From Marinobacter antarcticus (GTDB taxonomy: Bacteria; Pseudomonadota; Gammaproteobacteria; Pseudomonadales; Oleiphilaceae): 64,000 nucleotides of DNA. This document shows, in pieces, positions 34,394 to 52,292 of the stretch (positions are counted from its first letter, which is position 1; every line of letters starts with the position of its first letter). Under the pieces are notes generated by a model. That model had not been told where the DNA came from. It searched no databases and saw nothing but the letters and a program-made list of their open reading frames with translations. The stretch lies in assembly GCF_011049865.1 (NCBI RefSeq), contig NZ_DRGY01000077.1, forward strand, positions 62,001 to 126,000. Reading direction: 5' to 3'. Both the position numbers and the translations under genes were made by a program.

Positions 34394-34671
34394 CGTTTAC
34401 GTAATGTCTTTACGCCTTGACTTGATTGGAAAAGCAAACTTAACTGATTTAACATTTATTCACAAAAATACCAGTTATTAATTTTGCAAGAATTATCGCT
34501 AACTGTTTGTTTAAAAGTTATTTTTTCCCGAAAAGCGTCTTCAAAACCTTACCGATACGACATGTTTTGTCAATACTATCTCGATTATACTTTTGCGTAA
34601 TTAATGGACACCTTGACAGCACACCTCAACTAGGCAGTCGTTAAAGTCATCGATGAACCGTGGAAGCGCGA

Positions 34672-36297
34672 GTGACTAATATTTCGATCGAATCTGCAAT
34701 TGCAGAATGGACTACTATCTTGGGTGAATCGGGAGTCGTCGCGGCTAGCACGGCAGGCTTCGGCGCCTCCACAACAGGAACGAAACGTTCTATTCCTGCG
34801 GTGCTCCGCCCGGAAAACCAGGAGCAGGTTGCGGCGGTTCTGCAAATTGCCCAACGGTGGCAGGTCGCCGTCTATCCCGTGAGCACAGGCAATAATTGGG
34901 GCTACGGTAGCGCCAACCCGGTTGAAAACGACTGCGCTATCCTTGATCTTGGCCAGTTCGACCGTATTTCCGATTTTGATCCCGAAATGGGTGTAGTCAC
35001 GGTTGGGCCAGGCGTAACCCAAGGTGCCCTAAGAGAGTTTCTGGATCGGCATGATGGCAATTACCTTGTTCCGGTAACCGGTGCGGGCCCCACATGCAGT
35101 ATCCTTGGCAACGCCCTTGAGCGCGGCTACGGAATCACGCCGATTACTGACCACTTTGCGGCAGTCACAAAGATAGAAGCCATCCTGCCAGACGGCAGCC
35201 TATACCGAACGCCGCTCAGCGAACTTGGCTGCGCGGAAGTAGACGGGCTTTTCAAATGGGGCGTTGGTCCTTATCTTGACGGACTATTTAGCCAAGGGAA
35301 CTTTGGCGTGGTGGTTAATATGACCATCGCCCTTGCGCCAGTTCCCGAAACCGTAACGGCTTTTTTCTTTTCAACAAAAGACGACGCCAAGCTCGAGGCC
35401 CTGGTACCCACAATCAGGGCCGTATTGCGAGCGCTGGGCGGAACGGTTGTGGCCATAAACTTGCTCAACAGCCAGCGCGTGCTCTCGATGATGGCGCCCT
35501 TTCCGGAAGACAAAGCCGTTGACGGTGTTTTACCTGCCCACGAAGTGGCTAGCCTCGCAAATAGCCATGGTGTGCCCGCGTGGAGCGGCGTAGGCGCGAT
35601 TTATGCGTCAAAGGAAGTAGCGGGAGCAGCCAGACGCACGCTGCGGCGCCTTCTCGGCCCCGTCACCGATCGCCTCATTTTTATAAACCGACGGAAAATC
35701 ACGGTGGCACGAAAAATCGCCCGTGTAATGCCTGGCAGGCTGGGTACCCGGGTTAAGGGCATGGCCGATACGCTCGCCGGCGCCCTGGAAATCATGCACG
35801 GCTCCCCCAACGATGTTGCGCTGGCATTGGCATATTGGCGTTCAGGCGCCCTGCCCGAACCTGGGCAACCGAAAAACCCGGCACGGGACGGCTGCGGGCT
35901 TATCTGGTTCGCGCCACTGGTGCCAATCCGAGGCCAAGACGTTCGCCGCTACATCACAATGATTGAAAGAATTTGCCCACAGTACGGTCTCAACCCGCTC
36001 ATTACACTAACCACCGTAAACGACCGCTGCTTTGACTCAACCGTTCCTTTGCTCTTTGATCGCAGTAACCCGGATGCAGCAGCGCGGGCCAACGCCTGTT
36101 ATCGCGCACTGTGCGAGGCGGGACAAATAGAAGGCTTCCTGCCTTACCGTCTCAACGTCGATGCGATGGACATCCTGAATACCAGTGGCTCTGCCTTCAG
36201 CCGCCTCACCAGCAAGCTGAAAGCCGCAGTCGACCCAAATTCCATTCTGGCGCCCGGACGTTACGTGCCCAGAATCAAAAAGATTTCCGAGGTCTGA
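34672..36297 (+). CDS. FAD-binding oxidoreductase, vanillyl-alcohol-oxidase/PCMH type
   Basis: This is a flavin-dependent oxidase or dehydrogenase with 541 residues from the GTG at 34672 (GGAA six bases before); a GTG at 34660 is also possible. The N-terminal PCMH FAD domain shows STGNNWGYGSANP, VGPGVTQGALREFL and GNALERGYGITP. The C-terminal half has the substrate cap and ends in DPNSILAPGRYVP, as in p-cresol methylhydroxylase and vanillyl-alcohol oxidase relatives. It has no signal peptide. It precedes the exosortase-associated acyltransferase by 115 bases, which suggests a role in the sorting or polysaccharide system. The 280-base AT-rich stretch upstream has no promoter I can defend. Confidence 0.82.
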   Translation: MTNISIESAIAEWTTILGESGVVAASTAGFGASTTGTKRSIPAVLRPENQEQVAAVLQIAQRWQVAVYPVSTGNNWGYGSANPVENDCAILDLGQFDRISDFDPEMGVVTVGPGVTQGALREFLDRHDGNYLVPVTGAGPTCSILGNALERGYGITPITDHFAAVTKIEAILPDGSLYRTPLSELGCAEVDGLFKWGVGPYLDGLFSQGNFGVVVNMTIALAPVPETVTAFFFSTKDDAKLEALVPTIRAVLRALGGTVVAINLLNSQRVLSMMAPFPEDKAVDGVLPAHEVASLANSHGVPAWSGVGAIYASKEVAGAARRTLRRLLGPVTDRLIFINRRKITVARKIARVMPGRLGTRVKGMADTLAGALEIMHGSPNDVALALAYWRSGALPEPGQPKNPARDGCGLIWFAPLVPIRGQDVRRYITMIERICPQYGLNPLITLTTVNDRCFDSTVPLLFDRSNPDAAARANACYRALCEAGQIEGFLPYRLNVDAMDILNTSGSAFSRLTSKLKAAVDPNSILAPGRYVPRIKKISEV

Positions 36298-36412
36298 TGT
36301 GCTGTTACCTCGATACAACCGGCGCACGCCCCCAAACTTGGGTTCAGGCTGCGTTTTTTCACCACAACGATCGGCACAACAGCTCCCCGACAGGGAAGAT
36401 GAGGAACTCAAA

Positions 36413-37216
36413 ATGCACCAAAGCGCACAAACTCAAGAAGACGTCAGTAACATTTTCAATTCCGTATTCGATGTCCATTTGGCGACCTCGCCAGAGGAGA
36501 TTAACGAGGTCTTCGAACTTCGGTATCAGGTTTACTGCATTGACCGACCTTTTGAAGACCCCAATTGCTTTGTCGATAAACGCGAGCACGATGAATACGA
36601 CCAGCGATCTGCTCACGCTCTGATCAGGTACCGAACAACAGGGGACATCGTAGCCGCCGTTCGTATCGTTATGGCGGGAGATACCCCGGAAGACGCTTAT
36701 TTTCCCATGGAAGGTCACTGTATCCATCAAATGGACCAGCAAGCACGGGACGCGTTTGCGGGCACACGCCGCAGGCAGGTGGCAGAAATTTCCCGGATGG
36801 CGGTCAGCCGTGATTTTCGACGGCGCCTCAATGAGGATAAAACAGCCTCTGGCGTTACCGATTTCGCGTGCTATAGCGATTCAGAAAATGGCAAGCGCGC
36901 ACTGCCCTATATCAGTTTGGGGCTTTTCGCTGCAATTCTACAGATGTCGGTCAAACACGGCATAACCCACTGGACAGCGGCTATGGAGCCAGCACTGCTG
37001 CGCATGTTGAAGCGATTTGGTGTGGAATTTGATCACGTGGGCCCGGTGATCGAATATCACGGGCGCCGACGCCCGGCCTTCACTGAAGCTGCGTCAATGC
37101 TTGAAAGTGCAAGGAAGCTTCGCCCGGATGTCTGGTCGCTTGTGACGAACAATGGCCAACAACTTCCGGCAAAACCGATGGCCAACTACGAGGCAAACGA
37201 CAGAAGGGTTGCCTAA
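36413..37216 (+). CDS. PEP-CTERM/exosortase system-associated acyltransferase
   Basis: This GNAT-fold protein, related to autoinducer synthases and N-acyl amino acid synthases, regularly accompanies exosortase loci. The ATG at 36413 has GAGGAA six bases upstream and gives 267 residues; the frame is open further upstream but lacks homology. Family segments: EINEVFELRYQVYCIDRPFE, REHDEYDQRSAHAL, RRRQVAEISRMAVSRDFRR and LRMLKRFGVEFDHVGP. Its product is unproven; relatives are suggested to make acylated small molecules. A terminator follows 30 bases after the stop. Confidence 0.9.
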   Translation: MHQSAQTQEDVSNIFNSVFDVHLATSPEEINEVFELRYQVYCIDRPFEDPNCFVDKREHDEYDQRSAHALIRYRTTGDIVAAVRIVMAGDTPEDAYFPMEGHCIHQMDQQARDAFAGTRRRQVAEISRMAVSRDFRRRLNEDKTASGVTDFACYSDSENGKRALPYISLGLFAAILQMSVKHGITHWTAAMEPALLRMLKRFGVEFDHVGPVIEYHGRRRPAFTEAASMLESARKLRPDVWSLVTNNGQQLPAKPMANYEANDRRVA

Positions 37217-38611: not shown

Positions 38612-40033
38612 ATGTTAAGGAAGATACTAGACAACCTGCCCCTATCCCGGCCTTATCTGGTCGTTACAGCGATTTCAGTGCTGATTTTTTATCCCACCTG
38701 GATAAGGCTGGCTGAGGCATCACTTGATTTCGAACAGGCTGGGCCGCACGCGCTTGCGACTGCCTTTATCTTTTTAGGACTGTTGCTGGTTCACCCGCCT
38801 GTTCATGAGAATCGTCAAACGCCGCTCAAGCCCTATCATCTTGCGGGCGCAGCGCTGTTAATTGCCACAACGCTGATTTGGGGCCTGCTGGAACTGGTTC
38901 GAATCGACACCCTTACCTATCTGATGCTACCAACCGGGCTAATCGTCTCGGCCTGGGCGTTGCTTGGCCTGTCTCGAACACTGACATTCCTGCCCTACAC
39001 GTTGCTTTTGTCGCTTTCGCTGCCTATCTGGGCAGATATCGCGCCGGCCCTTGTCGATCTCGCAAGTGCCGTTGTAGGCACCTTGGTAGGTTGGTTCGGG
39101 ATGACCGCTTTCATTGAAGGCAACAGCATCACCCTGCCCTATGGCCGCCTTATCATCGCCGATGGGTGCTCAGGCTATCGCTATTTGGCCATGTCCATTA
39201 TGTTGGCGATGATGACATCCATCCTTAACGACTATCGCTGGCGCGGCTGGCTGATTACTTTGCTGGTGGCGGCCGTTCTTGGGCTTATTGCGAACTGGGT
39301 ACGCATAACCATTCTGGTGGCCGTCGCCTATCAAACCGATATGCAAAGCGACATGATCTCCGACCACGACATGATGGGATGGATCGTGTTCGCAGTGTTC
39401 ATTTTACCGGCACTGTACTTCTCGCCGGTTCACAAAAGAAAGCCAGGCGAAAATCGTCCTTCGAAGATGTCTGTCTTCAACAAAACCGGTGTCATCGCGG
39501 TTGTCATCGCAATTGCGCTCGGCCCGATCGCTCTCACAATGATGCAAAGGCCTGGCCTCCCAGCCGCGCCCTGGGCACTTGAATTATCCGGGGCCAAGCC
39601 AACCAACACGGGCGACCTGCCGATAGCACTCGGGCTGCCGGATACATTAAACCAACAAGCATGGCGCTCCGGCGATCTATGGGTATTGCTGGCGCAAAGC
39701 CAGAAAATCACGGCCGATGAAAAGCTGGTGCCCTACCTGCCTCTGATGTTCGACACATCACTGTGGCAATTACAGGAAACATTTCAGCCTGGCCTTCGCC
39801 GCTATCGAAATATAATGACCCGTGAAGAAATAGTCATTGGCCAACGATTCCAGACCGGAACCCAGCGCAGTTGGAGCTACAAAGAAGCAAAATTGCTTCA
39901 AATTCCAGCGCTGCTGGCGCAAGAAAAACAATTTGCGCTCATCCTGTTCCAGATGAAGTGCAATTTTAGAAGCTGCGACCTGGCCAAAGAACGGGTTCAA
40001 CAGGCGATGACATCCGCTCAGCTTGTGAGGTAA
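38612..40033 (+). CDS. xrtA: Exosortase (XrtA-type) with C-terminal EpsI-like domain
   Basis: This integral membrane cysteine transpeptidase recognises PEP-CTERM tails. It has 473 residues, about eight membrane helices in residues 15-275, and the three catalytic residues in their standard contexts: Cys186 (IADGCSGYRYL), Arg231 (IANWVRITIL) and His252 (SDHDMMGWIVF). After a seventh or eighth helix near 290 a periplasmic tail (about 310-473) resembles EpsI, which is commonly fused to XrtA. Its substrates in the window are the two PEP-CTERM proteins. I call it XrtA type from the prsK/prsR/prsT company; a related exosortase class cannot be excluded. Confidence 0.9.
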   Translation: MLRKILDNLPLSRPYLVVTAISVLIFYPTWIRLAEASLDFEQAGPHALATAFIFLGLLLVHPPVHENRQTPLKPYHLAGAALLIATTLIWGLLELVRIDTLTYLMLPTGLIVSAWALLGLSRTLTFLPYTLLLSLSLPIWADIAPALVDLASAVVGTLVGWFGMTAFIEGNSITLPYGRLIIADGCSGYRYLAMSIMLAMMTSILNDYRWRGWLITLLVAAVLGLIANWVRITILVAVAYQTDMQSDMISDHDMMGWIVFAVFILPALYFSPVHKRKPGENRPSKMSVFNKTGVIAVVIAIALGPIALTMMQRPGLPAAPWALELSGAKPTNTGDLPIALGLPDTLNQQAWRSGDLWVLLAQSQKITADEKLVPYLPLMFDTSLWQLQETFQPGLRRYRNIMTREEIVIGQRFQTGTQRSWSYKEAKLLQIPALLAQEKQFALILFQMKCNFRSCDLAKERVQQAMTSAQLVR

Positions 40034-40061: not shown

Positions 40062-41252
40062 TCAATAGCAGCGCCCGAGCAAAATATCAGCAACTGACTC
40101 GACGTCTCCGTTGCGAACATCCTCGTGAGTTGGAAGGGTGATAAGACGATCCGCAAAATCACAGGCGCAAGGAAATGAGGAAGCAGCAACGGTTACAAAT
40201 TCGCCAGCTCCCTCTATCGCTGGGAGTGCCTGGCCGTAGAAAGCGCTGGCGCCGATACCGGCACGATTAAGCTCAAGAAGCGCTTTGTCTCGACTCTGCC
40301 GAGAAGGCGCGAGCAGCGGATAACGCAGCAATATCGGTGACGAGGCGACCAGGCCTTCACGAGCAGACTCAGCGAAACATTCCACCGCCAACGGGGCCCA
40401 ACCTTTCCCGGTGAGGTTCACCAAGGCTTCCGAATAGGCTGCGCTAATGTCCCGACGCTTGTTAAACCCTTCAATACCCGCCTCGAGCAGCCCCTCAACA
40501 GGTGACTGGCGTCCAATCGAGCCGAGCGGGTGAAACACCGTCTGCCCGATACCAAGAAGCGGCATACGCTCCATCGCCCCATAGAGAGGCGGTGTTAACA
40601 GTAAATTGAACAGCCAACGCCGGACCCGCCAGGCTGCGCTCGCGGATAGTCGAACTTCAGGAGGCGCATCCAAAACGCTCACACTCCCTAAAGCAAGCCG
40701 CTCCCCATGATCCTTACGGATTAAAAGCGCACCGCCACCCATCAGGTTTATTGGCTTGCCCCGACCAAAACTCAGTATCACATAGTCGGCCACCCCATTG
40801 CCGCAGGAAAAAGGCGGGAATACCTGGGCCGAATCCTCGATCAACGCCACATCGTTTTTATCTGCGATCCATCTAAGGGCAAACAAGCGTTCTGGTATGC
40901 CCAAAAACCCTGCTGCAATGATACCTACCGTGTTCTCAGTTACAGCGTTTTCCACGGCCTTCAAATTCATCCAGGGCCTGCCCTCTGCCAGATCAACCAA
41001 CACCGGCCGAGCCTCTTGAGCCACCACAGCGGCCACAAGATCCGGGCAACCGTAAGCGGGAAGAATCACTTCCGGAGTGTGCGGGGCTTGCTTGCGGTTA
41101 ACGGACAGTTTTACGGCCAGGGAAAGCGCAGCCGTGCCGCTGTTTACAAACACCGAATCATAATGCTCGGCCCAGGGCGCAGGCAAAACAGCGGAACCTT
41201 CCGTTGGCAAAGGCACCCGGCTGCCCACAGGCCGCAATTTGGAAAAGCTCAC
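40062..41252 (-). CDS. DegT/DnrJ/EryC1-family PLP aminotransferase
   Basis: This is a PLP-dependent sugar-type aminotransferase of 396 residues, starting at GTG 41252 with AGGGG about six bases upstream. Visible features are VNSGTAALSLAVKL (cofactor phosphate site), VILPAYGCPDLV, the Asp contacting PLP in ALIEDSAQVFPP, and the PLP lysine in LSFGRGKPINL. It follows the GT2 gene by 9 bases and is convergent with the exosortase gene. It probably makes an amino-sugar or other amino precursor for the polysaccharide. Confidence 0.85.
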   Translation of the reverse strand: MSFSKLRPVGSRVPLPTEGSAVLPAPWAEHYDSVFVNSGTAALSLAVKLSVNRKQAPHTPEVILPAYGCPDLVAAVVAQEARPVLVDLAEGRPWMNLKAVENAVTENTVGIIAAGFLGIPERLFALRWIADKNDVALIEDSAQVFPPFSCGNGVADYVILSFGRGKPINLMGGGALLIRKDHGERLALGSVSVLDAPPEVRLSASAAWRVRRWLFNLLLTPPLYGAMERMPLLGIGQTVFHPLGSIGRQSPVEGLLEAGIEGFNKRRDISAAYSEALVNLTGKGWAPLAVECFAESAREGLVASSPILLRYPLLAPSRQSRDKALLELNRAGIGASAFYGQALPAIEGAGEFVTVAASSFPCACDFADRLITLPTHEDVRNGDVESVADILLGRCY

Positions 41253-41261
41253 CCTATACCC

Positions 41262-42422
41262 CTAACGTTGGGACGGCGACCAGACAGTCATCCGGCGCCC
41301 TCCCAAAAACTGCAAGGTTGCATGGGCAATGGCGTAGTTCACCTGCACGAAAAAATACGGAATCCTGACATAGCCTTTGGCGCGTAAATCGGGCGAAAAG
41401 TGGGCCGCCAGAACAACCCCGTAAAAAACAAGCTGCAGCAACAGCGCCAGGCTGTATACCCAGCCGCTGCCAGCCAGCATGATTGAAGCCACGAACAAGA
41501 TGAGCAAAAACCAGGGAACGGCCCAGCGCATCAATTTATGGCTGAATACTTGCCAGGCAAACAAACCGAATTTAGCAGGATTGAGTACTTCCGGGTGTCT
41601 GGCCAGCGCCGTCCAGCCCCTAATAACGGTGCGCAGCTTGCGCTGGTACTCTTTGCCGGGGTCTGCGACGTCCTGGTAATGGCCCAGCACGTCTGGAGCG
41701 GAAACGGCTACATAACCTTCCATCGCGCAATTCAGCGCGGTATTGAAATCACTGGGGGCGTGAATATCCCAGCGCTCACACAACTCGTGTCGCACCGCAA
41801 AAAATGACCCGCTAAGGCCTACCAAGCCGCCCCGCAGCGACTCCAGCTTGCGCAGCCACATTTCATATTTCACGTAGGCGCCCTCGCCTACTACGCCACC
41901 ATCCCGGCTGACAAACACATCCTCACTGGAAATCGCACCCACCGTGGGGTTCTCAAAATATCTAACCAACGCAACAATCGCGTCCGCTGGAATACTGGTC
42001 GCCACATCCGAGAACACAATGATGTCTCCGGTTGCCATAGCGATGGCATCCTTCTGGGCATTCTCCTTCCCCAGCCGTTCGTCGGTTCGGGACAACAAAA
42101 TGCCCTTGTTCTGATACTCCCGCACAATATCATCGGTTGCATCAGCCGAGCAGTCAGAAGCCACGATGATTTCCAGGTTCGGATAAACCAGCTCCAAGGT
42201 GTTTTCCAGTTTTTGCCGGATGCGCCCAGCTTCATTGTGCGCTGTAATAATCAGCGAAACCGAAGGTGAACCGGCTTCGATATCCGCCGCTACCGGGCCG
42301 ACGCCGGGGGCTGGCAACGCTCTTTTGGCTGGCAGCGCCATGAGTATGAGCGGATAGATAAAATAGCTGTACAAAGACCCGAACACCGCAACCCAGAACA
42401 CCGCTTCCAACATCCGAATCAT
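41262..42422 (-). CDS. Membrane-bound family 2 glycosyltransferase
   Basis: This is a processive-type GT2 of 386 residues with one N-terminal helix (about 5-28) and three C-terminal helices (about 290-365). The catalytic domain shows SLIITAHNEAGRI, the nucleotide-binding Asp in VASDCSADATDD, the metal-binding DxD-like site in IIVFSDVATSIP and an acceptor-site region RGWTALARHPE. It heads a two-gene operon with the aminotransferase, and both ATGs (42422 and 42413) are acceptable. It starts 184 bases from the divergent truncated deacetylase. Confidence 0.86.
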   Translation of the reverse strand: MIRMLEAVFWVAVFGSLYSYFIYPLILMALPAKRALPAPGVGPVAADIEAGSPSVSLIITAHNEAGRIRQKLENTLELVYPNLEIIVASDCSADATDDIVREYQNKGILLSRTDERLGKENAQKDAIAMATGDIIVFSDVATSIPADAIVALVRYFENPTVGAISSEDVFVSRDGGVVGEGAYVKYEMWLRKLESLRGGLVGLSGSFFAVRHELCERWDIHAPSDFNTALNCAMEGYVAVSAPDVLGHYQDVADPGKEYQRKLRTVIRGWTALARHPEVLNPAKFGLFAWQVFSHKLMRWAVPWFLLILFVASIMLAGSGWVYSLALLLQLVFYGVVLAAHFSPDLRAKGYVRIPYFFVQVNYAIAHATLQFLGGRRMTVWSPSQR

Positions 42423-42605
42423 CCCTGCATCTGATCAAATTTGAGGCGAAATAATAACACACAGACATTCCATAGATTAGCCATTCGCACTTGGCCAACG
42501 TTATAACCAAGTATAATGACAGGGCATGCCTGAAATGGCACAATCTGCGAGCAACTCAGCGGCCCTTTGCCCGCCTGTGATTTGCATCAGGGAGGATTGG
42601 TAATC

Positions 42606-42941
42606 GTGCAGTTAGTTAAACAGATGTTAAAACAGGCTCGCAATAGCCTGTTCGCGTGCTTGGCTTTACTCAGAATAAAGTTCAAGAGCTCTCCATCTCT
42701 GGTAATCCTGACTTACCACCGCATACTGCCAAGCCAGTCACCGCTCCGACACACTGAACAACCCGGGATGATAGCCACCCCGGAAGCGCTGGATATGCAT
42801 ATCAGCCTTCTCAAACGGCTCGGACCCGAATTTGTTGCCCTGGATACCTCGCTGGATGCTCAACGCGAGAACAACGCATCGCCCCGATTAGCGTTAGCAA
42901 ATAATGGCAGGAGTATCAGATCCGGAACGCAACGGGCATGA
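42606..42941 (+). pseudogene. Truncated polysaccharide deacetylase (5' fragment)
   Basis: About 95 codons from the GTG at 42606 match the first part of the intact deacetylase at 44252 almost residue by residue: VKQMLKQARN, LVILTYHRILPSQS, TEQPGMIATPEALDMH. Even the leader (GGATTGGTAATCGTGCAG) is shared. Similarity stops near 42895, before the catalytic TFDDGW motif, and the frame runs into unrelated sequence and stops at 42941. It therefore lacks all metal-binding and catalytic residues and cannot be an active deacetylase. Confidence 0.85.
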
Positions 42942-43270
42942 AAAGTTATCGGCTGAACACCTTAAAATCCGCGATAATCCGAATCATGCTAAGAAAATTT
43001 TGTATTTTGTGGTCTTTACCTGAACCCGTCAGATGGCGCTTTGTGGCAAGGCCCAGACACTGTCTGGCCCAAGATATAACTGACACTCAGGGGTTCTCAT
43101 CGTCGCGCCACAATTCAAAGCGGTGAGAACAGTTAAAGGGTCAATTGCGCAAACAAACCCGAGCGCCATTGACAGCAAATCGATATATTATCCGAATAGC
43201 GCATTATTTTCGCAACGACCGGAAATTGCATCACATTCAACAGCACCTACAAGTTATTTAGAGAATTCAT
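42942..43270. other. Non-coding junction between deacetylase fragment and QueC-like gene
   Basis: About 330 bases without a convincing gene. A 41-codon frame from 42904 to 43029, ending NHAKKILYFVVFT, has coding-like composition and might be the tail of a lost gene, but it is too short to identify. The stretch marks the change from GC-rich DNA to the very AT-rich QueC-like gene. I see no inverted repeats or target duplications of an insertion sequence. Confidence 0.4.
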
Positions 43271-44074
43271 ATGGACTTAGAGCAGAAGAAACATATGGTT
43301 AACATATTGTGGACTGGCGGGTATGACTCTAGTTTCCGAATGGTTCAACTATCCCAAAAAGACGTGATCATTCAGCCATACTATCTTTCAGACAACCGAA
43401 ATAGCGAAAAAAATGAACTAAATGCTATAGAGGAGATAACATCAGATATAGAAAAAAATCCGAAAACTAAATGCAAGATACTACCGATTGTCATAAAAAA
43501 TACTTCAGAAGTAAAGCCTGATAATGAAATAACACAGTCATACTTAGAACTAAAAAAATCATTACCAATAGGTTCGCAGTATGAATGGCTATCAAGATTC
43601 GCCAAAGAACAGAATATGGAGGATCTAGAACTTAGCATTGAAAAGCCAATATCGGGTTCAGGCTTAGTAGTCAATTTGTTTGATAAATTCAATGCTAAAA
43701 TGAACTTGGAAACTGATGGCGAAATATCTTACTATAGATTAGAAAAAAAAGGTTCAGACCAAAACCTTTATAGAGTCTTCGGAAAATTTCATTATCCTAG
43801 CCCTCTTTTCGACATGTACAAAACTGATATGTTGGGCGCTTATAAGAAATTAGGATTCGAAAATACTATCGAAAAAACGTGGTTCTGCCATACCCCTATA
43901 AGAAATCAGCCATGTGGTTTATGTAACCCTTGCGAATCGGTTATCAAGGAAGGTCTTGGATTTAGGTTGCCTATTTTAAGTAGAATAAGAAACAAAATTA
44001 AAATACTATACAAATTTAAATATTATTTTAAAAAATTAATTAAAAAAACTATCAAAATTTTCTATATATATTAG
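43271..44074 (+). CDS. QueC/ExsB-like PP-loop ATPase-family protein
   Basis: This protein of 267 residues resembles 7-cyano-7-deazaguanine synthase. The pyrophosphatase loop is WTGGYDSSF (about 14-22, SGGxDS type). The zinc site reads CHTPIRNQPCGLCNPC, giving the QueC spacing C-x8-C-x2-C-x2-C, followed by the basic, Lys-rich tail. PP-loop enzymes adenylate a carboxylate or carbonyl and often form amide or nitrile products. The gene is much more AT-rich than its neighbours and lies between the truncated and intact deacetylase copies. A true queuosine role is unlikely here because no other queuosine genes are near; modification of a sugar or glycan substituent is my inference. Confidence 0.75.
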   Translation: MDLEQKKHMVNILWTGGYDSSFRMVQLSQKDVIIQPYYLSDNRNSEKNELNAIEEITSDIEKNPKTKCKILPIVIKNTSEVKPDNEITQSYLELKKSLPIGSQYEWLSRFAKEQNMEDLELSIEKPISGSGLVVNLFDKFNAKMNLETDGEISYYRLEKKGSDQNLYRVFGKFHYPSPLFDMYKTDMLGAYKKLGFENTIEKTWFCHTPIRNQPCGLCNPCESVIKEGLGFRLPILSRIRNKIKILYKFKYYFKKLIKKTIKIFYIY

Positions 44075-44251
44075 CCTTATAACTGTAACAAGAGAATCCG
44101 TTCAACTTGGTGCTCGGACCTTGAAAATGGCAAGAATTTTAGCTCAATAAATTAGCTGCTTAGATGGGGCTAATTGGACAACCGAGTCGAAAACCGCCGA
44201 CACTAATGGCCCATAAATCATTATTTTTTGCATCAAGAAGGATTGGTAATC

Positions 44252-45283
44252 GTGCAGATGGTGAAACAGGTTTTAAAACGAGCTCGAAATGGCGTTTTCG
44301 CTGTAATCGCTTTACTAAGAATAAAGCTTAAACGTTCACCTGCACTGGTAATCCTGACCTACCACCGCATCCTTCCTAGCCAATCCGTCCTCCGGCAGAC
44401 TGAACAACCCGGCATGATAGCCACTCCTGAATCTCTGGACATGCATCTTGGTCTGCTCCGACGGCTAGGAGCCGAGTTTGTCTCAATGGACACGTGGCTG
44501 GATTCCCAGCGCAAAAACAAAATGTTGCCCCGATTCGCGGTCGCCGTTACTTTTGACGATGGCTGGCAGGACAATTACGAATATGCTTTCCCGTTGCTCA
44601 AAAAGCACAGAGTGCCCGCCACAATATTCCTGGTGTCTAAGCGAATCAACACATCCTGGCAGTTCTGGCCTGAACAAGTGCTGGATTTACTGATCAACCA
44701 TGCCCATCAGCTTGATCAAGAGGCACTGCAATGGCTACGCCCTTACCTCGTCGATATGCCGGCAAACAAGGGCTCTTCATCGCCCTACACAATCCTGCAG
44801 GCCGACTCAGTTATAAACCGCCTAAAGGCACTGGACGACCACATTATCGAAGTGCATCTGGAACTAAGCCGCAACTCTATTCCAGCCCTGATCCAAGCGA
44901 ACCCGAATGCCAGACCCCTGCTGAATAAACACGAACTGGACACCATGCTTACAAGCGGGCTTGTCACTTTTGGAGCGCATACTCGGCACCACTATCGGCT
45001 AAATCACCTTGCGGACCCGATAGATCTTGAAAACGAAATTGCCGGCAGCCACAAGGATCTGGAAGAGCTCGGGCTTAAGCCTGTCAGTATCTTTTGTTAC
45101 CCGAACGGCAACATCACCAGCAACGGTGAACAGCTCGTACAGAAGCATTTCACCGCCGCATGCACCACTGAGCGGGGCTGGAACAAAGCCCTTTCAAACC
45201 CGCTTGGCCTTCGCAGGTTCAACTTTCATGATGGCAATGGCAGCACACCTCTCAACTTTTTAGCAACGCTCGGGAAACCATAA
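44252..45283 (+). CDS. Polysaccharide deacetylase (carbohydrate esterase 4 family)
   Basis: This metal-dependent N-deacetylase has 343 residues from the GTG at 44252; AAGGA lies upstream. The catalytic core is visible: LVILTYHRILPS, the two aspartates of VTFDDGWQDNYE, the metal-binding histidines in FGAHTRHHYRLN and the substrate-site segment FCYPNGN. It has no clear signal peptide, but an N-terminal hydrophobic stretch (NGVFAVIALLRIKL) could act as an anchor. Its stop is one base before the next glycosyltransferase start, so the two are co-translated. It likely removes acetyl groups from HexNAc units of the glycan. Confidence 0.88.
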   Translation: MQMVKQVLKRARNGVFAVIALLRIKLKRSPALVILTYHRILPSQSVLRQTEQPGMIATPESLDMHLGLLRRLGAEFVSMDTWLDSQRKNKMLPRFAVAVTFDDGWQDNYEYAFPLLKKHRVPATIFLVSKRINTSWQFWPEQVLDLLINHAHQLDQEALQWLRPYLVDMPANKGSSSPYTILQADSVINRLKALDDHIIEVHLELSRNSIPALIQANPNARPLLNKHELDTMLTSGLVTFGAHTRHHYRLNHLADPIDLENEIAGSHKDLEELGLKPVSIFCYPNGNITSNGEQLVQKHFTAACTTERGWNKALSNPLGLRRFNFHDGNGSTPLNFLATLGKP

Positions 45284-45284
45284 C

Positions 45285-46451
45285 GTGGCAACGAGCGATT
45301 CCGATAAAAAGCTTGTGGTGACCCATATCGTGTCCGGGGACATTTGGGCGGGTGCCGAAGCACAGGCATTTGAGCTTATTTCAGGGCTGCAAACCAATGG
45401 CGTGATCAAACCGACGGTCGTCGTCTTCAACACTGGCGTTCTTTTCGACAAGTTCACCGCGTTGGGTATCGATGTCACCCTTGCGGATGAGTCGGCTTTA
45501 TCGCCTTTGGGCCAGATTAAAACCATCTGCAAACACTTGCGGAAACATCCCACCGACATTATTCATACTCATGGCTTCAAAGAGAATATGTTGGGCACGG
45601 CATCGAAATACCTGGTCGGCGTTAAACACTCTGTTCTAACGGTACATGGAAGCCCTGAGTCGCAGTCAACCTGGCGAGCCCCGAAGAAAAAACTAATTAA
45701 CGTCCTGGATCGTGCATTGTCACGGTTTTGTCACGACGCCGTAGTTGCTGTGTCACAACACTTAAAAACTCTGTTGGAACCCCGATACCCGGACAAAACG
45801 GTCGTCATCCGGAACTTCATAGACACCGATAGAATCCCCACCACTCCCCTCCAACAACCTGATGAGCGAAACGAACCTGACGCCCTTTACAGGATCGCTC
45901 TAGTCGGCCGTTGCGTTCCGGTAAAGCGTGTCGACTTGTTTGTTGATACTATAGTTAGCCTCAGAACCGACCACAATCTCGACGTTGAAGGTAGCGTCTG
46001 CGGGGATGGACCGCTTCTTAACACCATGAAGCAATATGCTAAAAGCAAAGGCGTGGCACAATTCATTCACTTCAAGGGTTTTGTTCACAATATGGAACCC
46101 GAATGGACATCAATGGACACTTTGATAATGCCTTCTGATCACGAAGGCTTACCCATGACCTTGCTGGAAGCGTTACTGCGAAAGGTGCCCGTGGTTGCCC
46201 ACAACGCAGGCGGTATACCGGAAGCGCTGGACTTTGGAAACTGCGGATTATTAGTGGATAACCACGATTCAAAGGGCTACACCGACAAGCTCACACAACT
46301 CATAAGTCAGCCAGAAATGGCAAAAAGGCTCGCTACCAACGGACATAATCATGTGATAAAAGCGTTCGGTAAACGTGAAAATGTACAAACATATGAAGAA
46401 CTTTACCAAACTATCTCGCAGAAAAAGAAACACCTAACCCAAAATATATAA
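45285..46451 (+). CDS. Family 4 (GT-B) glycosyltransferase
   Basis: This 388-residue GT-B enzyme starts with GTG one base after the deacetylase stop. The acceptor domain begins VVTHIVSGDIWAGAEAQAFE. The donor-binding domain includes VGRCVPVKRVDLF and the GT4 C-terminal motif MPSDHEGLPMTLLEALL followed by VAHNAGGIPEAL, where the E-x7-E pair contacts the nucleotide sugar. It transfers a sugar with retention of configuration; which one cannot be told. Confidence 0.88.
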   Translation: MATSDSDKKLVVTHIVSGDIWAGAEAQAFELISGLQTNGVIKPTVVVFNTGVLFDKFTALGIDVTLADESALSPLGQIKTICKHLRKHPTDIIHTHGFKENMLGTASKYLVGVKHSVLTVHGSPESQSTWRAPKKKLINVLDRALSRFCHDAVVAVSQHLKTLLEPRYPDKTVVIRNFIDTDRIPTTPLQQPDERNEPDALYRIALVGRCVPVKRVDLFVDTIVSLRTDHNLDVEGSVCGDGPLLNTMKQYAKSKGVAQFIHFKGFVHNMEPEWTSMDTLIMPSDHEGLPMTLLEALLRKVPVVAHNAGGIPEALDFGNCGLLVDNHDSKGYTDKLTQLISQPEMAKRLATNGHNHVIKAFGKRENVQTYEELYQTISQKKKHLTQNI

Positions 46452-46455
46452 GCAC

Positions 46456-46487
46456 CATCTCGACTCCTTGATCATTTTGTCGAGATG
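46456..46487. repeat. Nine-base inverted repeat before the ABC transporter
   Basis: CATCTCGAC and GTCGAGATG are perfect inverted copies around a 14-base loop, just after the glycosyltransferase stop. There is no T run, so it is more likely an mRNA stem for attenuation or stability, or an operator, than a terminator. Confidence 0.6.
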
Positions 46488-46515
46488 CCGAAAACAGGTT
46501 TATCAGAGTTTATTC

Positions 46516-48333
46516 ATGTATATATTCGACGTTATAAAAACCATTCTTTCTGTTCTAGATTCCGCTGCTCGGAAGAAATACATTGCTCTACAATTTACAT
46601 TTCTCTTCTCTGCGTTTTTTCAGGTTATCGGCATAGCGAGCATCGGGCCATTTATATCTATTCTATCCAATCCAGACATAATTCATACCAATACAGCGCT
46701 GTCATGGGTATATCTGAAATTTGGATTCGGCACCGATCTCCAATTTGTTATTGCAGCGGCACTGGGCTCACTGGTATTAATTTTTTTGTCAAATGCAGTA
46801 GCAGCCATGACTTTGTGGTTGACCTTTCGCTTTTCTGTGTCACTTGGCAGCAGTCTTCAACAACGAGTATACAGAAATTCTCTTTTTAAAGACTACTTAT
46901 TACACAAAACCGAGAATTACAATAAGAAAATTGCACTAGTTGCCACGCAAGTTCCTCGTTTTGTTTATATGCTTGTTCAGCCATTTCTACTTCTAACAAG
47001 TCAGTTATTTATTGTAGCTATTATTCTTATTGGATTACTTGTTCTCGATCCACTACTGGCTCTTATTGCCGGTGGGATTATTGGAGGATCATATCTAATC
47101 ACCTATATTGTATTACGAAAGAAGCTAGCACACCACGGTGCGATCATCTCGGAGAGAAACAATAAAGTACAGGGGATTTTGTCAGAATCCTTTATTGGTA
47201 TTAAAGACGTAAAGTTGGACTCTCTCGAGAACCGATATATTGATCGGTTTAATACTATAAATGTCAGAGGCCTGAAGTCCCAAGCGTTTATTGCGCTTTC
47301 TGGCGATCTACCCAAATTTGTTATTGAATCACTTTCTTTCGGGGCAATCCTGGTTCTTGCTTTAGTTCTACTCATGACACAAAATGATTTTCGCTCAGTT
47401 GTTCCCATCCTGAGTATTTACGCACTCGCAGGCTATAAACTATTACCCACGATGCAACAAATCTACAAATCCCTTTCAAGCCTGAGCGGGCATGGTTCTG
47501 TTGCTAGTCTAATCAAAAACAGATTGGGACCTAGAACTACTGAACCCTCCGATGTCCTCACTCCAACTAAGCCAATGGTTATCAACCAAGTTCAACTATA
47601 TGAGGCCAATTTCTTTTATGCCAAAGACAGCGCCCCCGCAGTTCATAACGCCAACCTAATCTTAAACAAAGGCCAAATCTATTCACTTGTCGGCCATTCA
47701 GGATCGGGGAAATCCACGTTGGCAGATGTCATACTGGGATTGCTTGAATTGCATTCCGGACAGCTGATTGTCAACGGTAAAGTTATCACCAACGCGGATC
47801 TCGCGTCTTTCCGTAAGAAGGTAGGATACGTAGCGCAGACAATTTTTATTCTGGATGACAACGTATTGAATAACGTCGCCTTCGGCGTGCCAGCGGATGA
47901 AATTGATTTGGATCGAGTCAAGCACGCTCTTGCATTAGCCAACGCTAATGAGTTTGTCAACAGTCTCCAAAACGGCATCTATTCAAATCTCGGGCAAGAC
48001 GGAAAACTCTTAAGCGGCGGACAGCGGCAACGAATTGGCATCGCGAGGGCGCTATATAAACAAACAGATCTGCTTGTCCTAGACGAACCTACCAGCGCCC
48101 TCGATATAGAATCTGAATTCAAATTAATGAAAACCCTGAACTCCCTGAAAAACGATCTAATTATATTGATAATATCTCACCGACCTGCGGCTATCAAAAT
48201 GTCCGATAAAATAATTTTGATGGAGAGCGGAGAAATTAAAGACCTTGATACATACACTAACTTGCTAGCCAAAAACGAAAAATTTCTATCTATGATGACT
48301 AGCACATTAGATAAAAAATCGAGCACAACATGA
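46516..48333 (+). CDS. ABC exporter, fused membrane and ATPase domains (MsbA-like)
   Basis: This half-transporter of 605 residues probably exports or flips a lipid-linked glycan. I start at the ATG at 46516 (MYIFDVIKTILSVLD). Six membrane helices fall in about 20-320. The nucleotide-binding domain has Walker A VGHSGSGKST, signature LLSGGQRQR, Walker B LLVLDEPTSALD and the switch His in IISHRP. It is the only export candidate in the window; no Wzx-type flippase is present. It is separated from the upstream glycosyltransferase by a hairpin. Confidence 0.9.
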   Translation: MYIFDVIKTILSVLDSAARKKYIALQFTFLFSAFFQVIGIASIGPFISILSNPDIIHTNTALSWVYLKFGFGTDLQFVIAAALGSLVLIFLSNAVAAMTLWLTFRFSVSLGSSLQQRVYRNSLFKDYLLHKTENYNKKIALVATQVPRFVYMLVQPFLLLTSQLFIVAIILIGLLVLDPLLALIAGGIIGGSYLITYIVLRKKLAHHGAIISERNNKVQGILSESFIGIKDVKLDSLENRYIDRFNTINVRGLKSQAFIALSGDLPKFVIESLSFGAILVLALVLLMTQNDFRSVVPILSIYALAGYKLLPTMQQIYKSLSSLSGHGSVASLIKNRLGPRTTEPSDVLTPTKPMVINQVQLYEANFFYAKDSAPAVHNANLILNKGQIYSLVGHSGSGKSTLADVILGLLELHSGQLIVNGKVITNADLASFRKKVGYVAQTIFILDDNVLNNVAFGVPADEIDLDRVKHALALANANEFVNSLQNGIYSNLGQDGKLLSGGQRQRIGIARALYKQTDLLVLDEPTSALDIESEFKLMKTLNSLKNDLIILIISHRPAAIKMSDKIILMESGEIKDLDTYTNLLAKNEKFLSMMTSTLDKKSSTT

Positions 48334-48567: not shown

Positions 48568-49488
48568 TTAAATAAAGCCAGCTCGACCGAGAATAGTCAA
48601 AAAAAACTGTTTAAAAACCAAATCACCAGGTTTTTTTAAACTAGTCAAATTCAAGTGCTCACCAAAAATATAGTCAAAACGTTCTGGCTGAAAGGGAGAA
48701 AAACCTCCACCTGGATAGAATGTCGCTTCACCAAAATAAAAATTATCGGCTGTCGCAAGAAAGTCTACACGGCAAAAAATAAAGTTCGCGGATATATCAC
48801 GGGCAATCTTCTCCATTTTCTCTAAATGAGCTGAACGTTTTACTGACGTTGCGCTGACCTTTTGATTGCCCTTCCCCATATCGAGCCTGTTCCACTCCAT
48901 GTCATAGACATCCAATGTGTGGTGTCCGAAACGTTCAGAATCAACCTGGACAAACTGCGGAGCGCCATTAAAACAAAAAATCTTAAAATCTCGCAGCTCA
49001 CCGGCCAAATGACGCTCTATTATAATCTTCGGCTTTATGTCTCTATATGCCCACTCTCGAAACGTTAAGTAATGATTATAGCGTAGCCAATTTCCGAGTT
49101 TATTCTTAGCGCTATGCTGATCAAGCGCTAACTTATCCTCACAAATAATATTTGTATTCCATGAATGGTTACACTTAATTACAAATTTTTCCGGCAATGC
49201 ATCGAAATCAATATCCTCGGGGCTTTCACATTCTTGGAATAGTTCATTCAATATATCGCCATAACCGATACATTCTATGTACTCTCTCACACGAAACTTA
49301 TCAACTAGCTCAGTCATCAGAGGGTTTTTGTCATAGAGCTTCAGAACCTGAATCTTCTCGTTAAACGTTTGAGGTCTAAGAAGATTGATCGGTCTTCCAA
49401 AAGTTTTTTTGAAATGCTTAGCAATAAATATTTCGTTGCCCAAATAATTTTTAATGAAACGTTTGGCTTGCTGTAACAACCAATACAT
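48568..49488 (-). CDS. TupA-like ATP-grasp amidoligase-family protein
   Basis: This 306-residue protein has the ATP-grasp fold named after TupA of teichuronopeptide synthesis. It starts with MYWLLQQAKRFIKNYLG after a clear GGAG. The family pattern is visible: NLLRPQTFNEKIQ, KFVIKCNHSWNTN (ATP-binding lysine), KIIIERHLAGELRDFKIFCF and the catalytic acidic residues in CRVDFLATADNFYFGEATF with YPGGGF. Such enzymes are proposed to join an amino acid to a carboxyl sugar in surface polymers. It is the first gene on the minus strand of the AT-rich cluster. About 230 non-coding bases separate it from the ABC gene. Confidence 0.85.
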   Translation of the reverse strand: MYWLLQQAKRFIKNYLGNEIFIAKHFKKTFGRPINLLRPQTFNEKIQVLKLYDKNPLMTELVDKFRVREYIECIGYGDILNELFQECESPEDIDFDALPEKFVIKCNHSWNTNIICEDKLALDQHSAKNKLGNWLRYNHYLTFREWAYRDIKPKIIIERHLAGELRDFKIFCFNGAPQFVQVDSERFGHHTLDVYDMEWNRLDMGKGNQKVSATSVKRSAHLEKMEKIARDISANFIFCRVDFLATADNFYFGEATFYPGGGFSPFQPERFDYIFGEHLNLTSLKKPGDLVFKQFFLTILGRAGFI

Positions 49489-50202: not shown

Positions 50203-51006
50203 TTACTTAAGCTGATAGATTTTCCTCTGCTCACCATTTTTAACGATCAGATTATTAGAGTGGCGCTTTTCAGCTCTAGCCTGACGTTTAATAATCGATA
50301 TTTGAAAAAAGGGAAAAATTCTGTACTTATGAATAAACTTCGAGAATCCGGAAATCGAAAGTATATTTGAAAATTTAGAAAATTTTGCAATGTCGCTGTT
50401 CAGCTCTTCATGACGGACAGGAAACGGAAAACATAGCGTGATATTATCAATTATGCCTTCATTAATATAATGCTCCCAGTCATCTGCACGGCATCGAGTG
50501 CTAAACATTTCGACAGACATTCGTTCCGCATCCATCCTTTTAATCGCGTATGCCATCGTCCCCCATACGTTTTCAATTTGATCTACCAAGTAATGGTAGC
50601 TTCCCTCATATATATAATCACTCTTTGTTATTTTAGTTGGTCTGAAAAAGAGGGCACACAAAAGTAAGGGACCATTTTCTAAATTGCTCGCAGATATAGA
50701 TTTTACTATTTTACAAAATTTACTATCAAAAACAACATCATCTTCAATAATTATACCAACTTCTTCTTCGTCGTCTAACATCTTTCTTAACGCTTTTGAA
50801 TGACTACGGGCACAAGCAACTTCGCCAGGCTTTAAAGCCCCCCCCCGCGGATCAGAATTATTAATTTTTTCTACAATTCCCGGCTCTATATCGGCCGCAG
50901 AGATCGCCTGAATTACCTCGTATTTAAGATCAAAGGAACTCAAGCGCTGTTTCATTTTCCGGAGACGCCTGCTTGAACAAGGGAGATTGATCACATAGAT
51001 CTTCAT
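50203..51006 (-). CDS. Family 25 glycosyltransferase (LPS biosynthesis type)
   Basis: GT25 enzymes add galactose or glucose to lipooligosaccharide or other glycans. This one has 267 residues from the ATG at 51006. Family motifs: IYVINLPCSSRRLRKM at the N-terminus, GEVACARSHSKALRKML near 65-80, the metal-binding IIIEDDVVF near 88, and a late DDWEHYI corresponding to the conserved acidic region. The C-terminus is basic (KRQARAEKRHSN), suiting membrane attachment. It is strongly AT-rich like its neighbours. Confidence 0.85.
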   Translation of the reverse strand: MKIYVINLPCSSRRLRKMKQRLSSFDLKYEVIQAISAADIEPGIVEKINNSDPRGGALKPGEVACARSHSKALRKMLDDEEEVGIIIEDDVVFDSKFCKIVKSISASNLENGPLLLCALFFRPTKITKSDYIYEGSYHYLVDQIENVWGTMAYAIKRMDAERMSVEMFSTRCRADDWEHYINEGIIDNITLCFPFPVRHEELNSDIAKFSKFSNILSISGFSKFIHKYRIFPFFQISIIKRQARAEKRHSNNLIVKNGEQRKIYQLK

Positions 51007-51136
51007 AGCCAAACAACCTATAGATTAAATTTATCCGTGGTAGAAATTTTACGTTTGTAAAATTTTAATTTATTGACTTAGTGGCAAAAATATATTGATC
51101 ACAAAGTCTAAAAAACATAAATTTCAAGGCTCCCGC

Positions 51137-52129
51137 TTACTTAAATTTCAAAGCCAACTCACGCGCTTCAGAAAACGATTGGGCCGCAATACAAAAACCA
51201 TCACTACCCGTACTCCAAGCAGCTCGAAAGTTTCCGATCTTTCCATATGTGTTATCTAGTACCACGTGGGGAATTCCCATAATGGTACAAAGCACATGGG
51301 CATGGAGCCTGTCAGTAATCACAACCTGACCAGACGACAACAATAAGCAACCACGCCGTAATCTAAGATTAGCCGCCCAACTGTATATAAGCTTTCTAAA
51401 CCTACTGCTAGTACCACCTAAGAGCCTTCGATCGAATCTAGACGCCCAATTAACTACCCGAAAAATATTACGATTTTCTTGTACCCAGTCACAAAAAAAC
51501 GAATCCTGATCTGCCTCATCATGTTCATATTTCTGCTCACAATCCGTACGGAGCAAGCCCAATATATGAAAATCTTGTTGACTCATGCGAGGCGTTTTCT
51601 TTAAATAAAACGCCATATCTGGACAAAGATAGGAATGACCACTATGAATTCGCTTCGCTATATTAAAACTAGCTTCATCCCTAACAATTAAATGAAAATC
51701 AGAATGTAATTTTAGTGAGTCAGCACAACGCAATTCTTCTGATTCACGTTGAAAGTGAATTGACTGGGGAAGTTGAATTATTCTATGGTTTGGATATTGG
51801 CTTATCAACAACTCTCTTAGTTTCTGATGACGCGGGTAGATATCACCAAAATTCCCGCCTCCATTGATTAAAACTGCCACATCTGACGGTAACTTCGGAT
51901 ACCCGCGAGCCCCATGATAGCAATCATCAACATGTAGGATAAAAATGTCATGCTCAGCGAGGAAGGATTCTTGGCCTAACCAAATCGCACTATCACCGAC
52001 ATTCGCATAGTTTGGAAAATCAAATATAGCGACCCGATCATAACCTTTTAATATCGGAAGCAAGATTTCATCGATATTACTTTTAAGTTCACCAATCCTT
52101 AGATTCGTCAACTGATTATCCTTGTACAT
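51137..52129 (-). CDS. Polysaccharide pyruvyl transferase family protein
   Basis: This family adds ketal-linked pyruvate to sugars in exopolysaccharides (CsaB/ExoV/WcaK group). It has 330 residues. Typical segments are FDFPNYANVGDSAIWLG near 40-56, VLINGGGNFGDIYP near 90, QLPQSIHFQ near 120, and the donor-site region VITDRLHAHVLCTIMGIPHV near 270-290. Pyruvylation would add negative charge to the polymer. The gaps to its neighbours are 130 and 160 bases. Confidence 0.88.
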   Translation of the reverse strand: MYKDNQLTNLRIGELKSNIDEILLPILKGYDRVAIFDFPNYANVGDSAIWLGQESFLAEHDIFILHVDDCYHGARGYPKLPSDVAVLINGGGNFGDIYPRHQKLRELLISQYPNHRIIQLPQSIHFQRESEELRCADSLKLHSDFHLIVRDEASFNIAKRIHSGHSYLCPDMAFYLKKTPRMSQQDFHILGLLRTDCEQKYEHDEADQDSFFCDWVQENRNIFRVVNWASRFDRRLLGGTSSRFRKLIYSWAANLRLRRGCLLLSSGQVVITDRLHAHVLCTIMGIPHVVLDNTYGKIGNFRAAWSTGSDGFCIAAQSFSEARELALKFK

Positions 52130-52292
52130 TATTTTTTCCCACGTTGAGAATTTATGTACTGCCCCTAAATAAACTATCTCTTTTTTAGAATTCGCGACTA
52201 AGTAGGGAGCAACAGACGACCAGAAATTTACAATAAAATAGATAATATTCTAAAGAACACCACTTACACCACTAATCTTCATTTTTGCATCG

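Follow-up and report, generated by a model that had tools for sequence, protein, structure and literature searches.

The window, a 64,000-nucleotide stretch of DNA from a Marinobacter genome, includes an exosortase exopolysaccharide locus with PEP-CTERM proteins recognized by eye, and the gene under study lies within this locus (Table 1). The gene is positioned between a deacetylase stub and an intact deacetylase gene, which share a direct repeat (42581-42880 and 44227-44526, 76% identical over 300 bp). This diverged repeat resembles recombination between alleles, perhaps between polysaccharide loci. The GC content of the gene is 32.2%, compared with 50.6% for the window and 54.2% and 50.7% for the flanks of the gene, and the ATP-grasp and glycosyltransferase part of the locus (48568-53351) is likewise AT-rich, with 36.9% GC. 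The start of the reading frame is uncertain, given that an in-frame ATG at 43295 (Met9) suits the family equally well, and no hairpin before a T-run was found downstream of the gene.

An earlier note on this DNA had described an intact WTGGYDSS loop and a full C-x8-C-x2-C-x2-C site in a gene with no other queuosine gene nearby. We confirm the two motifs at residues 14-21 and 206-221, and the 13 window neighbors scanned with Pfam included no queuosine gene (queD and queE among those sought) and no CD-NTase gene. Elsewhere in the window genome, contig C34 carries a canonical queC (209.7 bits, cut-off 150.3). Because this gene adjoins one encoding a radical-SAM protein, which was taken by eye to be QueE-like, the window genome probably makes 7-carboxy-7-deazaguanine (CDG). 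The TupA-like gene of the locus is the only TupA match of this genome at E 1e-5.

Table 1. Features of the exopolysaccharide locus, in window coordinates.
Feature	Position	Strand	Basis or remark
FAD-binding protein (PF01565)	34660..36297	+	Pfam; exosortase locus
GNAT acyltransferase (PF13444)	36299..37216	+	Pfam; exosortase locus
Exosortase (PF09721)	38612..40033	+	Pfam
DegT/DnrJ-type aminotransferase	40062..41252	-	Pfam
GT2 glycosyltransferase	41262..42422	-	Pfam
Stub of second polysaccharide deacetylase gene	42567..42941	+	Repeat part 42581-42880; alone without Pfam match
AT-rich stretch containing the subject gene	43200..44220	no strand	Composition; gene 32.2% GC
PP-loop protein of predicted QueC fold (subject ORF)	43271..44074	+	267 aa; ORF list, Pfam, AlphaFold model, best solved match Cap9
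PP-loop WTGGYDSS, ATP pyrophosphatase loop	43310..43333	+	Residues 14-21
Zinc-type site C206-x8-C215-x2-C218-x2-C221	43886..43933	+	Four Cys invariant in 82-row alignment
Basic C-terminal tail, net +11	43973..44071	+	Predicted helix 235-266 (AlphaFold model)
Polysaccharide deacetylase (PF01522), next gene downstream	44228..45283	+	Pfam
GT4 glycosyltransferase	45285..46451	+	Pfam
ABC transporter (ABC_tran)	46468..48333	+	Pfam; possible glycolipid flippase
TupA-like ATP-grasp (PF14305), candidate partner	48568..49488	-	Pfam E 3.3e-52
GT25 glycosyltransferase	50203..51012	-	Pfam
Polysaccharide pyruvyl transferase	51137..52129	-	Pfam
GT4 glycosyltransferase	53474..54625	-	Pfam

Separation of the family from canonical QueC

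The window protein matches Pfam QueC (PF06508) at E 2.4e-6 with 27.6 bits, above the gathering score of 22, and the match runs through the zinc end of the domain. It also matches a QueC-like family of PHROGs (E 1.5e-13) and, weakly, the QueC model of PADLOC (22.2 bits), and its score of 18.8 bits against the NCBIfam QueC equivalog TIGR00364 is below the curated cut-off of 150.3. As the sole query against genome contigs, plasmids, and phages it gave no matches; the same result was obtained with two other members against phage records and with one against plasmid records. A three-sequence profile search of 84,980 species genomes yielded 93 relatives, and 80 of these were kept by means of patterns holding the PP-loop or the GSQY motif. 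Because the scan needs exact short patterns, the resulting family size is a lower bound. Relatives are found in Gamma- and Alphaproteobacteria, Bacteroidota, Bacilli, Clostridia, Nitrospira, Planctomycetota, and other groups, and in one Bathyarchaeon.

In an alignment of 82 rows, amino acids W14, G16, G17, D19, S20, P36, Y38, R43, E49, Q103, and P220 and the four cysteines are invariant; at the PP-loop and GSQY this is partly by construction, because the selection patterns contained these motifs. Conservation of the PP-loop and the four cysteines across the alignment indicates that the motifs of the window protein are no chance occurrence, bearing in mind that the search patterns favored the loop. 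The loop has TGG where canonical QueC has SGG. Exceptions among the profile matches are WTSGWDS in L089 and GRQY in a phage fusion protein. In the L089 relative (L089:1438-2541, minus strand), WTSGWDS replaces WTGGWDS, a change inside the PP-loop. PF06508 matches 76 of the 82 rows at E 0.01, and the QatC model NF041925 matched six rows, with a best E of 0.027.

According to the available text of a 2026 survey (PMC13329287), canonical QueC is defined by the motifs YxQxHxxE, VPxRN, and YPDC, each of which contains essential residues. All three, including Y.DC as the relaxed form of the last, are absent from the window protein. Each is present in all 28 canonical QueC sequences of our comparison set, which was drawn from carrier genomes, whereas YxQxHxxE and VPxRN occur in none and Y.DC in only one of 87 family members. 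Conversely, PxY..R.[STG]..E is present in 87 of 87 members versus 0 of 28 canonical QueC sequences, and [GA]xQ[YHS] in 87 of 87 versus 2 of 28. The spacing after the first cysteine is x8 in 53 members, x9 in 27, x7 in six, and x12 in one. A quick tree, which took in 10 of the 28 QueC sequences and left out Cap9, QatC, and WbpG, contains one branch (SH-aLRT 100) that parts the 87 family members from the 10 canonical QueC proteins. Judged by its sequence, the window protein is not a canonical QueC, since it misses the equivalog cut-off, lacks the three signature motifs, and falls on a separate branch, as the earlier note had implied. The totals of 87 members and 89 loci include the window and near copies. 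L064, which has no readable full ORF, is outside the alignment of members and the tree and yet counted among the 89 loci; the near copy L033 was left out of the tree, and L089 and L112 were left out of all counts.

At L070, L080, and L082 we observed tandem pairs of diverged QueC-like copies, 71-75 bp apart, which may work as a pair. Other QueC-like proteins with scores of 67-122 bits, below the canonical cut-off, are encoded by Marinobacter iranensis and by three Thioalkalivibrio (G382:C329, G371:C11, G408:C11, and G405:C27).

Predicted fold and known relatives

The AlphaFold model of the window protein (pLDDT 94.9) predicts a QueC-like Rossmann fold. In structure comparisons, Cap9 was the best match (Z 12.5, rmsd 3.2 over 164 residues), followed by QueC (Z 9.9), with which the PP-loop-like protein YcfA ties at 9.9, and QatC (Z 9.1-9.6). 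Foldseek TM-scores are modest, for example 0.44 by query for Cap9.

Canonical QueC and the family have in common the fold, the position of the PP-loop, the zinc-type cysteines, and a conserved K ahead of the cysteines, and a profile-profile comparison of the two gave E 1.4e-8. Unlike canonical QueC, the family usually has WFC, CGxCxPC, and a basic tail, with no queD or queE seen beside it. Linkage of canonical queC to queD and queE is frequent, but not universal. Cap9 of type IV CBASS, the best structural match, is an amide-forming QueC-fold ligase that recognizes CDG via Y115 and D117, as described in the available part of PMC13279940. The available text of PMC13329287 further describes that Cap9 retains the YxDC motif and is accompanied by a CD-NTase, neither of which was seen for the window protein; by a sequence test only, the CDG-binding Y-x-D pair of Cap9 is missing. 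QatC of qatABCD resembles the window protein in having a QueC core without the CDG Tyr/Asp pair, but in the same text it is a protein of about 400 aa with N- and C-extensions, a C-x19-C variant, and qat partners, unlike the window protein with its 267 aa and C-x8-C. N-acetyl sugar amidotransferases (NASAT) such as WbpG, which form PF06508 cluster 5, likewise combine a PP-loop with a zinc tetracysteine and act on a sugar amide in surface-glycan synthesis. They differ, according to the parts of PMC10607449 and PMC13329287 available, in a length of 300-400 aa, an SGGKDS loop in the solved member, and a CXXC...CXXC arrangement. The NASAT motif CXXCXn[GN]XCXXC is absent from the window protein, which has C-x8-C-x2-C-x2-C instead. 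TupA-like ATP-grasp ligases (PF14305) have an unrelated fold and are a candidate partner and frequent neighbor rather than a relative; such ligases form amide bonds on surface polymers.

Distribution in Marinobacter and in phages

The gene is present in 12 of 120 Marinobacter genomes. On the tree, these 12 carriers account for five label changes, at least four of them forced, and the gene therefore probably entered Marinobacter several times. Exosortase, FAD-binding, GNAT, and PEP-CTERM-like genes are common to the window, L101, L104, and L108, and L110 shares the same genes except the exosortase within its stretch; together these five loci occupy three places in the tree. The fact that unlike copies have entered one glycan locus more than once favors function over chance landing, although a hot-spot bias is possible. 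Following the QueC-like gene, L104:13219-18124 encodes a PcRGLX-like protein, a hexapeptide acyltransferase, and a 574-aa protein without a Pfam match, and L108:4037-8958 resembles this region by eye.

Several copies are phage-borne. An Oceanobacillus prophage (L051) carries the family gene together with tape measure, tail, holin, endolysin, and recombinase genes, and a viral contig (L149) carries it with genes for an M14-carboxypeptidase tail protein and a phage amidase. In both, the gene has lysis genes on one side and, on the other, the gene of a large tail protein that includes an M14-type part; these tail proteins share 37% identity over 121 residues. In these two distinct phages, the genes of the M14 zinc carboxypeptidase-like tail proteins (L051:7509-9890 and L149:5109-7952) immediately precede the QueC-like gene. 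In a metagenomic phage contig (L086, identical to L148), the family gene lies among head and portal genes. We considered phage copies as separate transcription units and dropped this idea: promoter-like counts were not clearly above those of shuffled sequences, and downstream of the gene a hairpin with a T-run behind it is present in L149 (z -4.6) and L086 (z -3.4), but not in L051 (z -0.3).

In one phage lineage (L150-L152), the family domain (E 3.1e-34) forms the C-terminal part of a 601-aa protein, the N-terminal parts of which are 100% identical among the three loci. This N-terminal part matches Pfam RimK at E 0.0024 with 17.9 bits, below the cut-off of 21, and there are two weak RimK matches at E 0.1. 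Profile comparison gave ATPgrasp_ST at E 0.16 and TupA at 0.52, with four unrelated controls at 0.29-0.71, and the predicted structure of the N-terminal half has a pLDDT of 42. The N-terminal part is probably an ATP-grasp domain. The fusion gene adjoins a UDP-glucose dehydrogenase gene, with a borderline GT4 match and methyltransferases nearby. As a single lineage with a sub-threshold domain, the fusion offers a hint, the most direct one, of a QueC-fold step and an ATP-grasp ligation in one pathway involving an acidic sugar.

Glycan genes and ATP-grasp ligases near family loci

At least one glycan gene was detected within 8 kb of 43 of 89 family loci, compared with 0 of 28 canonical queC loci from carrier genomes, using glycan HMMs that were built from neighbors of the family's own loci (Fisher 2.5e-7, a statistic that ignores relatedness). 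Without counting the window the figure is 42 of 88, and restriction to the 61 loci whose 8-kb flanks are complete on both sides leaves 31. The flank was incomplete on one or both sides for 28 of the 89 loci and 5 of the 28 controls, and the number of loci in which no glycan neighbor was detected, 46 of 89, is therefore an upper figure. Seven of 35 queC regions were dropped because the motif search missed the ORF; an earlier count with a narrower control motif had given 44 of 89 with only seven controls. Family genes are found close to glycan genes and on the same strand in distant taxa.

Pfam tallies of neighbors were drawn from 39 of 44 glycan-type loci (L110 assigned to these by hand) and from 38 of 45 solitary ones; they cover closed ORFs of 110-900 aa and list the 25 commonest families of each type. 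Among 137 near neighbors of the glycan-type loci, there were GT4 families with up to 14 matches, GT2 (9), TupA ATP-grasp (8), hexapeptide transferase (7), PGA_cap (6), Polysacc_synt_3 (6), ATPgrasp_ST (4), and Mur ligase (4). By contrast, no Pfam family exceeded three among 133 neighbors of the 38 solitary loci. In L107:6127-8001, a 625-aa protein joins the middle and C-terminal domains of a Mur ligase to a peptidyl-tRNA hydrolase domain (E 4.4e-41); its gene adjoins the QueC-like gene in Marinobacter glycan loci, and similar genes are present in 6 of 89 loci including L107. An association of the family with tRNA genes was considered and dropped, with 6 of 89 loci and 1 of 28 controls within 600 bp of a tRNA gene and about four expected by our own estimate of tRNA density.

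On the tree, the glycan label changes 19 times, at least eight of these changes being forced by well-supported branches, compared with a mean of about 32 upon shuffling and no value as low in 500 shuffles. The glycan association has thus undergone several gains or losses, with clustering, and is not confined to one clade, the arrangement that the earlier note had put forward for testing. The association with glycan genes does recur in other genomes, at 43 of 89 loci versus none of 28 for queC, but leaves out about half of the loci. Of the companions that the note had named, ATP-grasp genes (TupA or ATPgrasp_ST) are indeed found within 8 kb at 20 of 89 loci, whereas deacetylases are near only 9 of 89.

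ATP-grasp genes are near 19 of 87 tree rows, with 13 label changes, at least eight forced. The carrier genomes tested, 53 in all, comprise three with G-handles and those of 50 of 81 loci, isolates being preferred; 27 of the 53 have a solitary copy, and 24 of these 27 were examined for ATP-grasp partners. TupA was detected in 14 of these 24 versus 3 of 143 genomes of the class used as a baseline, one of the three being the window's own; 5 of the 24 lie outside this class, and 6 of the 14 positives are Kushneria or Larsenimonas. In Halomonadaceae, TupA is present in 8 of 9 carriers versus 22 of 142 non-carriers, and non-carriers in carrier genera are also positive; in Marinobacter it is present in 2 of 12 carriers versus 4 of 108 non-carriers (p 0.11). 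Co-occurrence with TupA is weaker than it appears because it is confounded by lineage. TupA is a frequent companion, but no fixed or universal partner. The ATP-grasp family PF14397 was set aside as a partner: it is present in 15 of 24 solitary-type carriers, and in 12 of these 15 the best match is near-full-length (290-337 bits) and looks like a common housekeeping ligase, a count that has no baseline.

Substrate clues and the C-terminal tail

Canonical QueC was detected above the cut-off in 35 of 53 carrier genomes tested, leaving 18 without it, and nine of the 18 (9 of 53) had neither a canonical QueC nor a PTPS/QueD match. These nine are Compostibacillus humi, Loktanella sp. Alg231-35, Tetragenococcus halophilus, Shimia ponticola, and five Bacillota metagenome bins, which may be incomplete; the search covered QueC and PTPS/QueD. 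By the known route these carriers would be unable to make CDG, although uptake is possible. Given that the CDG motif is missing and nine carriers lack QueC and QueD, CDG is an unlikely substrate.

A C-terminal tail with a net charge of +4 or more is present in 75 of 87 members, with a median of +8 over 32 residues; tails of canonical QueC are short (median 9 residues, net -1), and 0 of 28 reach +4. Six flavobacterial members have no basic tail, although the protein as a whole is basic. Amphipathicity exceeds that of shuffled sequences in only 27 of 87 tails, and not in that of the window protein (p 0.115). Membrane binding is therefore a guess, and RNA or another polyanion is possible.

Discussion

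The data presented here separate from canonical QueC a distinct and horizontally mobile family of predicted QueC fold, of the WTGG/GxQY type and with a remodeled active site, some copies of which are carried by phages. It is a branch of a known superfamily and apparently undescribed as far as literature searches reach. Our literature search, which took in few subscription journals, found no paper on such a glycan-associated QueC-like family. The available text of the survey PMC13329287 contains no word beginning polysaccharide, glycosyltransferase, or capsul, and the glycan member it names is WbpG; within this literature, the earlier note was right that no function is established for a glycan-associated member. 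By contrast, the nitrile-type product it had envisaged is not borne out, with the motifs needed for the chemistry from CDG to preQ0 being absent.

The different active site, frequent sugar-polymer neighbors, and phage carriage suggest that the family may build a nitrogen-containing glycan decoration. The reading we favor, possible if not quite probable, is that the protein is a mobile zinc PP-loop ligase which activates a carboxylate or amide of a surface glycan, or of a substituent on it, and couples this group with ammonia or an amine. The substrate, product, metal, chemistry, membrane location, and phage role that we infer for the family would be as follows. The enzyme would bind ATP and transfer AMP to a carboxylate or an amide oxygen, setting PPi free, and ammonia or an amine would then attack the activated group and displace AMP, as expected from established PP-loop chemistry. 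A precursor of the surface glycan would thereby gain an amide or amidine, either at a uronic acid or at an amino-acid or acyl-amino group provided by a ligase from the same locus (ATP-grasp, Mur-type, or AMP-forming). The basic C-terminal tail could tether the enzyme to the membrane or to some other anionic surface. The target of a solitary copy would be a glycan whose synthesis is encoded elsewhere in the genome, and a phage-borne copy would alter the surface of the host. Glycan context, neighboring ATP-grasp, PGA_cap, Mur-ligase, and AMP-binding genes, and the fusion adjacent to UDP-glucose dehydrogenase all point to a glycan amide or amidine. More tentatively, we propose an undescribed phage-spread family of QueC fold that forms amide or amidine bonds on membrane-bound glycan precursors, with ATP-grasp, Mur-type, or acyl-AMP ligases. 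Against the glycan reading, glycan loci attract foreign genes, so that hitchhiking could give part of the signal, and 46 of 89 loci have no detected glycan neighbor, with no neighbor family shared by the solitary loci.

These last observations would also be expected if the substrate were a soluble metabolite or RNA unrelated to glycans, with glycan islands and prophages as mere landing sites of mobile genes. The patchy occurrence in 12 of 120 Marinobacter genomes and a basic tail that is equally compatible with RNA are in line with this explanation. We nevertheless consider it rather doubtful in view of the close same-strand placement beside glycan genes in distant taxa, for which none of the 28 queC controls offers a parallel, the linkage to ATP-grasp genes in several tree lineages together with the ATP-grasp fusion, the repeated entry into one Marinobacter locus, and the lack of enrichment at tRNA genes. 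A single-gene anti-phage or superinfection-exclusion factor akin to Cap9 and QatC, perhaps modifying a protein N-terminus, would account for Cap9 as the closest solved fold, the rare and patchy distribution, and the occurrence in prophages and viruses, where two copies lie between tail and lysis genes. It is unlikely, given that no CD-NTase or QatA/QatD is among the 25 commonest neighbor families in each tally, the PADLOC QueC match is weak (22.2 bits), and many copies lie among biosynthetic genes; since a surface change can itself give exclusion, it overlaps with the glycan explanation.

Alternatively, the protein could be a counterpart of WbpG/NASAT that converts N-acetyl to N-acetimidoyl on a glycan, and thus an acetamidino-sugar synthase. 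According to the available text of PMC10607449, NASAT, a PP-loop protein that has a zinc tetracysteine, is believed to join ammonia to the N-acetyl group of a sugar. The second step of QueC, from amide to nitrile, also speaks for such chemistry, but the NASAT signature and its cysteine pattern CXXCXn[GN]XCXXC differ from those of the family, and we regard this as quite improbable. The coupling of CDG to an amine of a glycan or protein has a precedent in the nearest fold, Cap9, which does so to a protein (available part of PMC13279940), and the window genome probably makes CDG. However, Y.DC is absent in 86 of 87 members including the window protein, and 18 of 53 carriers are without canonical QueC, nine of them also without PTPS/QueD (four isolates and five metagenome bins), which makes deazaguanylation very improbable. 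We give almost no credence to a redundant true QueC, which the Pfam name, the PP-loop, and the zinc-type site would suggest, considering that the protein falls short of the equivalog cut-off and lacks all three signature motifs and that a canonical queC is present elsewhere in the genome. The names of carriers also brought to mind a possible role connected with halophily or compatible solutes.

In conclusion, the family, which we tentatively regard as forming amides or amidines on surface glycans, is spread over many phyla and matches chiefly models of queuosine enzymes. It was only recently that a QueC-fold protein outside queuosine synthesis, Cap9, was shown to conjugate CDG to a protein (PMC13279940, available part). 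If the family decorates glycans, the chemistry of capsules and exopolysaccharides would gain a step that forms amides or amidines, queuosine annotations would be corrected, and surface change by phages could be approached through a single gene. Should this novel reading be true, the QueC fold would once more have been recruited for a task outside nucleobases, and one mobile gene could change the cell coat.
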